In this document: positions 29,670 to 32,350 of the stretch, in pieces
Position numbering within the stretch: the first letter of the stretch is position 1
Layout: every line of letters starts with the position of its first letter
NCBI RefSeq assembly: GCF_030287445.1
Contig: NZ_JASVWB010000002.1
Coordinates: 3,348,001-3,412,000, forward strand
Direction: 5' to 3'
Length of the DNA stretch: 64,000 bases
Source: Streptomyces sp. ALI-76-A
Lineage (GTDB): Bacteria; Actinomycetota; Actinomycetes; Streptomycetales; Streptomycetaceae
Translations under genes and position numbers: made by a program
The notes under the pieces: generated by a model
What the model saw: only the letters and a program-made list of their open reading frames with translations
The model's database searches: none
Told to the model about the DNA's origin: nothing

Positions 29670-31058
29670 ATGCCCAGCACCACCACCGAGACGCCGCCCA
29701 CGGCACAGGACGTCTCCCTCTCCCCCGGCCTCAAGCAGCGCCATCTGTCGATGATCGCCCTCGGCGGGGTGATCGGCGCCGGGCTGTTCGTCGGTTCCGG
29801 CGCCGGCATCGCCGCCGCCGGGCCGTCGATCGTCGTCGCCTACACCCTGTCCGGCCTCCTCGTGATGCTGGTGATGCGGATGCTCGGCGAGATGTCGGCC
29901 GCGTACCCGTCGTCGGGTTCCTTCTCGGCGCACGCGGAACGGGCGATCGGCCCGTGGGCGGGGTTCACCGCCGGCTGGTCCTTCTGGATCCTGCTCTGCA
30001 CGGCCGTCGGTCTGGAGGCCATCGGCGCCGCGAAGATCGTCACCGGCTGGCTGCCGGGCACGCCCGAGTGGGCCTGGGTGGCGTTGTTCATGGCGGTGTT
30101 CTGCGGCGCGAACCTGGCCGCCGTGAAGAACTTCGGCGAGTTCGAGTTCTGGTTCGCGGCGCTCAAGGTCGGCGCGATCACGCTGTTCCTGGTGCTGGGC
30201 GGGCTGGCCATCGCGGGTGTCCTGCCCGGCACGGACGCGCCGGGCATGGCGAACCTCACCGGCGAGGGGGGCTTCCTCCCGAACGGCAGCGAGGGTCTGG
30301 TGATCGGTCTGCTCGCCTCCCTCTTCGCGTACGGCGGGCTGGAGACGGTCACCATCGCGGCGGCCGAGTCCGAGGACCCGGTGCGGGGCGTGGCGAGCGC
30401 GGTCCGTACGGCGATGTGGCGGATCGCGGTGTTCTACATCGGCTCGATGGCGGTGATCGTGACGCTCGTCCCCTGGGACTCGAAGGCGGTCGTCGAGAAG
30501 GGCCCGTACGTCGCCGCCCTCGACCACCTCGGCATTCCGGGCGCCGGCCAGGTGATGAACGTGGTCGTGCTGGTGGCGCTCCTGTCGGCGATGAACGCCA
30601 ACATCTACGGCTCCTCGCGCATCGTCTACTCCCTGGTCGAGCGCGGACAGGGCCCGAAGGCGCTGGGCCGGGTGTCGGGCGGGGTCCCCCGCGTCGCGGT
30701 GCTCGCGTCCTGCGTGTTCGGCTTCGGTTGCGTGGTGCTCAGTTACTGGCGGCCGGATGACGTCTTCCCGTGGCTGCTCAACATGATCGGCGCGGTGATC
30801 CTGGTCGTCTGGATCCTCATCGCCGTCTCGCAGCTGCGGCTGCGCCGCCGGCTGGAGCGGGACACCCAGGGGACACCGGCCGTGCGCATGTGGGCGTTCC
30901 CGGTGCTGACGTGGGTGGCGCTGGCGGGCATGGCGGCGGTCCTCGTCCTGATGGCCCGGGAGCCGGACACGCGGGTGCAGCTGTACTCGACGGGTGCGAT
31001 GACGGTGTTCCTGGCGGCCGTCGGCTTCGCCCGGCAGAAGGCGCGCGCCAAGGCCTGA
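29670..31058 (+). CDS. Amino-acid permease, APC superfamily (paralogue of the 23.8-kb gene)
   Basis: 462-aa twelve-span transporter. Motifs nearly duplicate those of the first permease (LKQRHLSMIALGGVIGAGLF, MRMLGEMSAAYPSSGSFSAH, FGEFEFWFAALKVGAI). The tail is short and basic (FARQKARAKA) instead of Pro/Gly-rich. Substrate unknown; the AAT subfamily includes GABA, lysine, asparagine and aromatic amino-acid importers. The probable attenuator directly upstream suggests that expression responds to some metabolite. A hairpin terminator follows, then the sodF remnant. The two permeases probably arose from an old duplication, as they differ throughout. Confidence 0.92.
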   Translation: MPSTTTETPPTAQDVSLSPGLKQRHLSMIALGGVIGAGLFVGSGAGIAAAGPSIVVAYTLSGLLVMLVMRMLGEMSAAYPSSGSFSAHAERAIGPWAGFTAGWSFWILLCTAVGLEAIGAAKIVTGWLPGTPEWAWVALFMAVFCGANLAAVKNFGEFEFWFAALKVGAITLFLVLGGLAIAGVLPGTDAPGMANLTGEGGFLPNGSEGLVIGLLASLFAYGGLETVTIAAAESEDPVRGVASAVRTAMWRIAVFYIGSMAVIVTLVPWDSKAVVEKGPYVAALDHLGIPGAGQVMNVVVLVALLSAMNANIYGSSRIVYSLVERGQGPKALGRVSGGVPRVAVLASCVFGFGCVVLSYWRPDDVFPWLLNMIGAVILVVWILIAVSQLRLRRRLERDTQGTPAVRMWAFPVLTWVALAGMAAVLVLMAREPDTRVQLYSTGAMTVFLAAVGFARQKARAKA

Positions 31059-31192: not shown

Positions 31193-31232
31193 TCCTGTTG
31201 CCCGCACACCGCTTCTTGTTGCTAGCCTGCAC

Positions 31233-31249
31233 ATGCAATTAAGTTGCAA
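31233..31249. promoter_or_regulatory. Nur-type (nickel) operator of the former sodF promoter
   Basis: ATGCAA-TTAAG-TTGCAA matches the TTGCAA-N5-TTGCAA Nur box as I remember it from S. coelicolor, where nickel-bound Nur represses sodF. It lies 24 bp before the sodF start codon with GGAGGGG between, so the regulatory region appears intact although the gene is not. TTGTTG (31216-31221) may be the -35. Confidence 0.65.
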
Positions 31250-31272
31250 TAAGAGGCCGGAGGGGACCCGCC

Positions 31273-31450
31273 ATGCCCGTCTGCACGCTTCCTGGTCTTC
31301 GACGCCTGGCAGCACGCCTTCTACCTCCTGTGCCGCAACCAGAAGGTCGACTTCGTCGAGGCGATGTGGCAGGTCGTCAACCGGCAGGACGTCGCCCGGC
31401 GCTACACCGCCGCCACGTCCCGCGCGGACGTGCCGCCGCTGACGCCGTAG
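31273..31450 (+). pseudogene. sodF: Deleted remnant of iron superoxide dismutase (sodF)
   Basis: The first seven codons (MPVCTLP) match the usual FeSOD start. The reading frame then shifts directly into the last 53 codons of the same gene: 31292-31450 reads [16 protein letters not shown] then [21 protein letters not shown] to a TAG. About 150 internal codons are gone, including two of the four metal-binding histidines. The remaining DAWQH keeps the Asp and His ligands but has drifted from DAWEH. The deletion ends share TCCTG-like microhomology (inference from relatives). The promoter with its Nur box survives. S. coelicolor carries an intact sodF at this locus, so this strain presumably relies on nickel SodN. 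Confidence 0.85.
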
Positions 31451-31511
31451 CACCCCACGGTCGTCCCGCCTCGTGATCGTCTTCTCACCCTTCACGGCGG
31501 CGGGCGGAATG

Positions 31512-31554
31512 CCGGAGCGGCCCCGCGAGGACGTGACTCGCGGGGCCGCTCCGG
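31512..31554 (-). terminator. Terminator of the DUF574 methyltransferase gene
   Basis: Perfect 18-bp stem (CCGGAGCGGCCCCGCGAG and its complement) around a 7-nt loop, 16 bases past the stop of the minus-strand gene; it also faces the sodF remnant. Confidence 0.8.
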
Positions 31555-31570: not shown

Positions 31571-32350
31571 TCAGGGCTTGCGGCCCAGGCCGCCGTGCTG
31601 GCCGATCGGTTCGGGGTCGGTGTCGTGTTGGTCCGGGCGCCAGAGCGGGACGGACACCACGCCGGGGTCGACCAGCTCCAGTCCCTCGAAGTAGGCGGCG
31701 ATCCGGTCGGCCGGGCGCAGGAAGTACGGGACCGCTCCGGTCTCGTTGTAGGCGTCCTGGGCCTGTTCGTAGGCCGGGTCGGTGCCCCGGGAGCCGTCGT
31801 TCACGCAGAGGTGGCTGCCGGAGGGGAGACCGGCCAGGAGGCGGCTGACGAGGTCGCGGGCCTGGTCGTGGTCGGCGCAGTGGCCGAGGACGCCGCTGAG
31901 GATCAGGGCCGTGGGCCGGGCCGGGTCGAGGGTCCTGGCGGCGGCCTCGAGGATGCGCTCCGGCTCGAAGAGGCTGATGGCCTCGTACGCCGTCGCGCCC
32001 TCGGGGGTGGAGGTGAGCAGGGGACGGGCGTGCGCGAGGACCAAGGGGTCGTCGTCCACGTAGACGATCCGGGACTCGGGAGCGTGGCGCTGGGCGACCT
32101 CGTGGGTGTTGGCCACGGTGGGCAGGCCGGAGCCGACGTCCAGGAACTGCCGTATGCCCGCCTCCCGCACCAGATGGCGGATGGCGCGGCCGAGGAAGGC
32201 GCGGCTGGCGCGGGCGATGGTGACGATCCCGGGGAAGACGGCGGCGTAGGCGTCGCCGGCCGCCGCGTCCACCGGGTGGTGGTCCTTGCCGCCGAGCCAG
32301 TAGTTCCAGATCCGCGCAGAATGAGGCACCGAGGTGTCGATCTCCGTCAT
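31571..32350 (-). CDS. SAM-dependent methyltransferase, DUF574 (Methyltransf_19) family
   Basis: 259 aa. It opens with the family hallmark ARIWNYWLGGKDHHPVD (residues 12-28). The SAM-binding glycine motif is FLDVGSGLPT, then YVDDDPLVLAHARPLL with the acidic loop that holds the ribose. The family is greatly expanded in Streptomyces, often next to conservon or two-component genes, and its substrates are unknown. Here it stands alone, ATG at 32350, with its own terminator and a 313-bp upstream gap. A role in small-molecule or signalling methylation is a guess only. Confidence 0.9.
   Translation of the reverse strand: MTEIDTSVPHSARIWNYWLGGKDHHPVDAAAGDAYAAVFPGIVTIARASRAFLGRAIRHLVREAGIRQFLDVGSGLPTVANTHEVAQRHAPESRIVYVDDDPLVLAHARPLLTSTPEGATAYEAISLFEPERILEAAARTLDPARPTALILSGVLGHCADHDQARDLVSRLLAGLPSGSHLCVNDGSRGTDPAYEQAQDAYNETGAVPYFLRPADRIAAYFEGLELVDPGVVSVPLWRPDQHDTDPEPIGQHGGLGRKP

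Follow-up and report, generated by a model that had tools for sequence, protein, structure and literature searches.

Streptomyces sp. ALI-76-A carries, in the window studied here (the whole stretch of 64,000 nucleotides that was analysed; Table 1), a gene for iron superoxide dismutase, sodF, of which the coding part has been destroyed and both the operator and the 3' end are still present, raising the question of why the two ends of a lost gene should be kept together. Many bacterial small RNAs derive by cleavage from mRNA 3' ends. In S. coelicolor, the report on s-SodF describes a stable RNA of about 90 nt with a processed 5' end, which is cut from the 3'UTR of the sodF mRNA, has sodN as its target and lowers the sodN mRNA, also when it is expressed without the sodF mRNA (PMC3919588). 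In this work we propose, with a probability of roughly 0.75, that the locus is sodF after a deletion of about 465 bp, by which the enzyme has gone and a Nur-controlled s-SodF unit has been left, and that it represents one stage of a recurrent route. The anatomy of the locus, the complementarity to sodN, the joint retention of operator and RNA and the decay of the enzyme at this place were established from the sequence itself.

Table 1. Positions, within the window, of the sodF scar, its regulatory elements and its neighbours
Feature	Position	Strand	Basis or remark
Window, Streptomyces sp. ALI-76-A	G000:C2:3348001-3412000		
Amino acid permease, conserved upstream neighbour of sodF	29670..31058	+	PF00324
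TAGCCT, -10-like hexamer in the former sodF promoter	31223..31228	+	Place inferred from the S. coelicolor sodF 5' end
Nur-type operator ATGCAA-TTAAG-TTGCAA	31233..31249	+	1 mismatch to TTGCAA-N5-TTGCAA
Ribosome binding site GGAGGGG, from the lost sodF	31259..31265	+	
First ~6 codons of sodF	31273..31292	+	ATG at 31273
67-codon frameshifted ORF from the old sodF ATG	31273..31476	+	Stop codon 31474-31476
sodF 3' coding remnant, last ~53 codons, drifted	31290..31450	+	Stop TAG 31448-31450; Sod_Fe_C, tblastn
s-SodF small RNA (RF02790), full-length match	31461..31552	+	Rfam match, fold
Anti-sodN stretch CCTCGTGATCGTCTTCTCA	31469..31487	+	Perfect complement of own sodN leader
s-SodF terminator stem-loop, 16-bp stem	31514..31552	+	Predicted fold
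S-adenosyl methyltransferase, gene that follows intact sodF (e.g. at L063 and L067)	31571..32350	-	PF04672

The loss of sodF at this locus, already read from the sequence alone, was confirmed by comparison with relatives. A complete sodF lies between the same permease and methyltransferase genes in genomes G009 (L067) and G197 (L063); therefore, bases have been deleted in the window. The two ends are indeed joined out of frame: from the old ATG the frame resembles SodF for about six codons and is unlike it for the rest of its 67, and the SodF tail is read in a different frame. The supposed resemblance of the last 53 codons or so to the C-terminus of Fe-SODs was borne out by Pfam (Sod_Fe_C, E 3.7e-9 in the window and 4.6e-8 in the genome search, with only positions 66-102 of the domain left) and by tblastn, which aligned the scar to SodF residues 152-213. 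No single frame of the scar contains both Sod_Fe_N and Sod_Fe_C, our test for a functional sodF. In our reading, the three bases TCC at 31290-31292 fit both sides of the junction, so that, judging from the lengths, about 464-470 bp appear to be missing.

The remnant differs from the intact copies of G009, G197 and G281 at 20, 22 and 24 of 159 bases, respectively, and these three differ among themselves at 7-8 of the same bases. The changes with respect to the three copies are distributed over codon positions 1:2:3 as 4:4:6, 4:4:5 and 4:4:8, as against an average of 2.7:2.2:6.6 for 26 intact sodF copies, and 4 of the 30 residues that are invariant in those 26 copies are altered. This bears on an assembly slip, which the sequence-only reading had discounted because of the drift. 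That the deletion arose in assembly or in culture, with wild populations still carrying a whole sodF, is very improbable: the exact deletion was indeed not found in the other genomes searched, but the drifted remnant with its substitutions at invariant residues, and the different deletions of sodF seen in other genomes, argue against it. A pattern scan of named genomes for the deletion seen in the window (TTGCAA, 202-232 bases, anti-sodN) gave no match, the records nearest to the window being possibly excluded from it. A DNA search of the 392 genomes of our survey returned G172 as the only other match through the junction region among the 150 matches listed; it was rejected as a carrier of the window's deletion, since its own deletion is different. 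Each of the two junctions retains sodF bases that are missing in the other, which supports independent deletions. In the sodN-locus tree the window genome groups with G009, G124, G197 and G281 (support 1.0). All four have a Sod_Fe_N match, and in three of them a complete sodF was read (L067, L063 and L105); therefore, the scar is young relative to their split from the window genome.

It could also be argued that the 67-codon ORF is now a selected product, that is, a new small protein, given that a good ribosome binding site and an ATG still stand before an open frame. We hold this to be hardly credible, as the frame arose incidentally through the deletion, the scars of G172 and G196 yield other ORFs (94 and 70 codons) and the compact loci described below have no room for one. 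As the frame of the old start codon ends within the anti-sodN stretch, its translation might even hinder the RNA.

The operator and the ribosome binding site had been noticed in the sequence-only reading and both are retained (Table 1). Judged by the letters alone, the operator begins four bases behind the -10 hexamer and, with one mismatch in the window, corresponds to the pattern tTGCaa-N5-ttGCAA overlapping the promoter. In S. coelicolor, the 5' end of sodF was placed 38 nt before the ATG in the report from which the Nur consensus was also taken (PMC3919588). The motif TANNNT occupies the -10 place in 15 of the 19 Nur-box loci that lack an intact sodF, and the background within the window is low, with a Nur-like box of up to 2 mismatches in 2 of 310 stretches of 400 bases.

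Ten bases after the stop codon of the remnant, at which the sequence-only reading ended, begins s-SodF; that reading missed both the small RNA and the recurrence of the reduction across the genus. The RF02790 match covers model positions 1-90 of 90 with 91 bits against a gathering cut-off of 46 (E 7.7e-15), and the fold, at -62.4 kcal/mol against a mean of -41.7 kcal/mol, is better than those of all 200 shuffled sequences (z -5.06). Taking the sodN mRNA start from S. coelicolor, all 19 bases of the anti-sodN stretch are complementary to the leader of the strain's own sodN, and the stretch starts at +19 nt from the stop of the remnant, the same offset as in S. coelicolor. Thus the Rfam score, the anti-sodN complement and the place behind the sodF stop with a strong terminator all assign the RNA to s-SodF. 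Rfam matches to mir-486 and MIR5534 over the terminator were rejected, as they scored under their own cut-offs. The sequence-only reading was right to suggest that a short Nur-regulated transcript may be made here. This transcript would not be a mere leftover, but would contain s-SodF with a perfect 19-nt anti-sodN, and this is the likely reason for the survival of promoter and 3' end.

The genome encodes one sodN, whose product contains the motif HCDLPCGVY, presumably the nickel hook. It also encodes a protein of the Fur family with 3eyy as its top PDB hit (E 2.3e-89), an entry named putative iron uptake regulator that we take to be Nur of S. coelicolor. An ortholog of Nur was found in the five Sod_Fe_N-less genomes examined out of five, with 92-96% identity. 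In addition, contig C4 carries an intact second sodF (sodF2, L001; 215 aa), which holds the single Sod_Fe_N match of the genome. The scar had been taken for what was apparently the strain's only nickel-repressed SOD, but sodF2 shows that it was not the only sodF; the alternative offered at the time, another sod elsewhere, is what the genome search found, and with an intact sodF2 beside sodN the strain need not rely on the nickel enzyme alone, so that the suggested dependence on SodN and nickel is not required. It must be noted that sodF2 (G000:C4 ~1345372) adjoins an ORF that we read as transposase-like, which suggests mobile surroundings. A third RNA match of the genome (L036, G000:C4:849835-849924) comprises ~14 codons from the end of a sodF2-like gene and an anti-sodN that has degenerated, and adjoins ORFs whose translations resemble ABC transporter ATPases; it is a decayed sodF2 tail with 3 anti-sodN mismatches.

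Since sodF2 has 18 of the 19 anti-sodN bases of its own, together with a Nur-like box with 3 mismatches, the RNA of the scar may be redundant. In this regard, the most serious competitor of our proposal is a neutral one, in which the presence of sodF2 made sodF redundant, both ends escaped the deletion by chance, promoter and small RNA have simply had no time to decay and the RNA is not needed. The unmutated 19-mer of the window is a weak argument against such an origin when taken by itself. Beyond it the RNA has diverged (77 matches out of 87-90 bases to relatives, which show 84-86 matches out of 91-92 among themselves), and the chance of finding 19 unchanged bases is still 0.04-0.09. The evidence from many lineages, given below, nevertheless makes neutral persistence unlikely.

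In the survey of 392 genomes, RF02790 was matched in 352 (338 above the cut-off), Sod_Fe_N in 340 and Sod_Ni in 387. Among the 52 genomes without Sod_Fe_N, the RNA match was absent in 26, weak in 11 and had an E value below 1e-9 in 15. The RNA is thus often lost as well, a point in favour of the neutral reading. Loci were fetched from the 26 Sod_Fe_N-less genomes with an RNA match and from 22 genomes with more RNA than Sod_Fe_N matches. The comparison set consisted of 30 loci that scored above the Rfam cut-off and, as judged by tblastn, were not preceded by an intact sodF (28 fetched and two from the window genome). L087-L094 and L096 were left out for RF02790 scores below the cut-off and L125 was also omitted (sodF residues 71-213, no Nur box), and G253, G380 and G384, with one above-cut-off RNA match each, stand outside the set. 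L113, whose Nur-like box has 3 mismatches, was counted as boxless, and the doubtful L085 and L086 were kept in a first comparison and dropped in a stricter one. The RNA adjoins Sod_Fe_N in 69 of the 70 genomes for which both places were listed, G222 being the exception, and therefore our choice of loci missed some cases, though probably few.

A Nur box (up to 2 mismatches, within 400 bases upstream) precedes the RNA at 19 of the 30 loci, from 19 genomes including that of the window. Twelve of these genomes have no Sod_Fe_N match and seven, the window genome among them, have a Sod_Fe_N gene elsewhere. Intact sodF genes have about 680-740 bases between the box and anti-sodN. At the 19 loci this distance is 9-24 bases in nine (L121, L073, L076, L078, L109, L071, L119, L098 and L115), 38-78 bases in four (L074, L075, L070 and L080) and 106-337 bases in six (L072, L077, the window, L082, L005 and L101), the box lying within 58 bases of anti-sodN in 12.

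Compact genes were sought with the pattern TGCAAYAA, 6-36 bases, CGTGAYCGTCTTCTCA, using one genome per species. It matched 19 contigs, all labelled Streptomyces, of which 11 bear species names: S. dioscori, S. tauricus, S. tricolor, S. calvus, S. beigongshangae, S. malachitofuscus, S. spongiae, S. pyxinicus, S. cellostaticus, S. griseorubiginosus and S. curacoi. At least four of the RNAs are identical to RNAs of the 19-genome set, so the two sets overlap. The permease, which adjoins many intact sodF loci, is just upstream at 15 compact loci, on the other side at two and non-adjacent at two. A Sod_Fe_N gene is present in 15 of the 19 genomes and absent from four; for eight of these 15, the stretch searched beside sodF contained no anti-sodN with fewer than 3 mismatches. 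Of 34 free copies, 19 agree with the intact consensus at 6 or 7 of the seven positions that precede anti-sodN. The start of the processed RNA in S. coelicolor is described as lying 7-8 nt before anti-sodN (PMC3919588). At L199 (S. tricolor) and L205 (Streptomyces sp. NRRL S-1022) the compact s-SodF is followed by the permease, which points towards it, and the usual s-SodF terminator is replaced by a hairpin resembling the shared end of the permease gene.

The number of separate reductions was estimated on two gene trees without an outgroup. The permease tree (80 tips, 40 of them intact; some loci appear twice) gave, under the fewest losses, 21 groups that keep box and RNA, which fell to 13, 8 and 3 when branches with support below 0.9, 0.95 and 0.99 were collapsed. 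The sodN-locus tree (70 tips; G115 dropped) gave 16 groups and, at the same thresholds, 14, 13 and 8. These figures would correspond to 13-14 independent reductions at 0.9 support, and to fewer at strict thresholds, and the groups may partly reflect horizontal transfer.

The quality of the anti-sodN stretch tracks the kept Nur box over these lineages, which is difficult to reconcile with neutral persistence. The 19 loci with a box have 0-2 mismatches (12 perfect) and the 11 boxless loci 1-11 (none perfect), a contrast with a Mann-Whitney p of 1.7e-5, of 7.0e-5 without L085 and L086, and of 2.7e-4 with one value per clade and both doubtful loci dropped; it must be considered that the RF02790 search favours loci bearing anti-sodN, which works against this contrast and not for it. 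The 12 genomes that keep box and RNA without any Sod_Fe_N match argue in the same direction. So do compensatory changes in the terminator, seen in 8 of 11 predicted pairs among 33 distinct free or scar RNAs, with 0 of 4 pairs in the 5' stem, counts that stand by themselves and not against shuffled sequences. Conservation of the anti-sodN columns is partly built in, because that sequence served to find the named loci. Finally, in the S. calvus group the free s-SodF has been kept while third positions of the permease diverged by up to 0.22, again against a neutral leftover. The 19-mer of this group has 0-2 changes, which do not pair with the sodN leader, and the function of its s-SodF may have weakened or shifted. 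T-to-C changes in anti-sodN were observed at L073, L076, L078, L115, L200, L201, L204 and L213 of this group.

The sodN leader TGAGAAGACGATCACGAGG is exact in 29 of 31 genomes, and no covariation between anti-sodN and the leader was obtainable among these 31, since leaders that barely vary cannot inform on the pairing. The same leader is also exact in G106, G148, G237 and G157, four genomes in which the RNA match no longer includes a good anti-sodN, and the leader may have a second function.

Taken to the level of mechanism, our proposal of a reduced but Nur-controlled s-SodF unit would operate as follows. Under nickel shortage, Nur would leave the operator, as shown in S. coelicolor, and a transcript of about 320 nt that yields no SodF would run to the terminator. 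Its last ~90 nt would be released as s-SodF by cleavage of the S. coelicolor type and would lead to the loss of sodN mRNA. The window would be an intermediate on a recurrent route by which the coding part of sodF is lost and operator and s-SodF stay, until free-standing, compact genes under Nur control remain; in these the Nur box stands directly before s-SodF, and the RNA would therefore be a primary transcript. Selection would then be keeping the shut-off of the nickel SOD under nickel scarcity, rather than the Fe-SOD of the locus.

IpeX is a possible analogue of such a gene. With S. coelicolor s-SodF (RF02790; Kim et al., PMC3919588) the window shares the 19-nt anti-sodN at +19, the terminator, the Nur box on the same transcription unit, the sodN target and, in many relatives, the permease neighbourhood. 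However, in S. coelicolor the RNA is described as a by-product of a working sodF mRNA (PMC3919588), whereas in the window the coding sequence is destroyed, and in the compact relatives, which have no sodF coding sequence, the RNA would be the only product. The same report (2013) mentions a sodF2 of S. bingchenggensis (SBI_01257) in which a big segment is deleted in frame and anti-sodN is still relatively good, and the authors suggested that the regulation may persist after the coding part is lost, leaving a sequencing error possible (PMC3919588). Compared by its description, that is one in-frame case, and the present data add a frameshifting, drifted scar, recurrence and compact genes. In SgrS/SgrT of enteric bacteria a regulatory RNA likewise outlives a coding part in some species, the SgrT part being described as missing in Yersinia with the base pairing retained (PMC4021124). 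SgrS, however, is a small RNA with a small 5' ORF, while s-SodF is the 3'UTR of an enzyme gene of 213-215 codons, whose loss is repeated and leaves graded remnants. MalH/MicX occupy one genomic place, with the RNA cut from an mRNA in one species and made from its own promoter in another, but are presented without a known common target (PMC9438474); at the s-SodF loci the promoter and operator of the host gene are kept, its coding part is lost and the target site is unchanged. That 2022 review, as far as its account of s-SodF goes, treats it as a processed mRNA fragment (PMC9438474), and a reannotation of S. lividans lists the sodF small RNA as transcribed (PMC8079986). Our literature search, which covered few subscription journals, returned no report of recurrent or free-standing s-SodF beyond the remark on S. 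bingchenggensis. Thus s-SodF, its target and its control by Nur are already known, and the recurrence and the compact genes are apparently new.

In a genome without any remaining Fe-SOD, exchanging one enzyme for the other cannot be the purpose of the RNA, and we propose nickel sparing instead. In its wider form, this reading says that the enzyme gene has turned repeatedly and independently into a free-standing RNA gene under the old operator, because what is conserved in s-SodF is its task of sparing nickel and not of swapping SODs; we consider it about evenly poised between true and false. Two genomes, G113 and G135, have Sod_Fe_N and neither Sod_Ni nor an RF02790 match; they may be an instance of the opposite, a joint loss of target and RNA, and would fit nickel sparing. 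G081 and G152 have the RNA and no Sod_Ni match, which counts against it. All four assemblies are fragmented.

How small RNAs derived from mRNA 3' ends become genes of their own is largely an open question, and on it this genus bears directly, as it shows a series from an intact host gene over variously truncated hosts to compact operator-plus-sRNA genes, with the loss occurring in separate lineages. If this wider reading is true, the window would be a mid-way stage in the birth of bacterial sRNA genes from mRNAs. Why the nickel SOD should be silenced in the 12 sampled Streptomyces that have retained the RNA behind its Nur box and whose assemblies show no Sod_Fe_N match is the question that follows, and a nickel-sparing role of s-SodF would be directly testable in collection strains.
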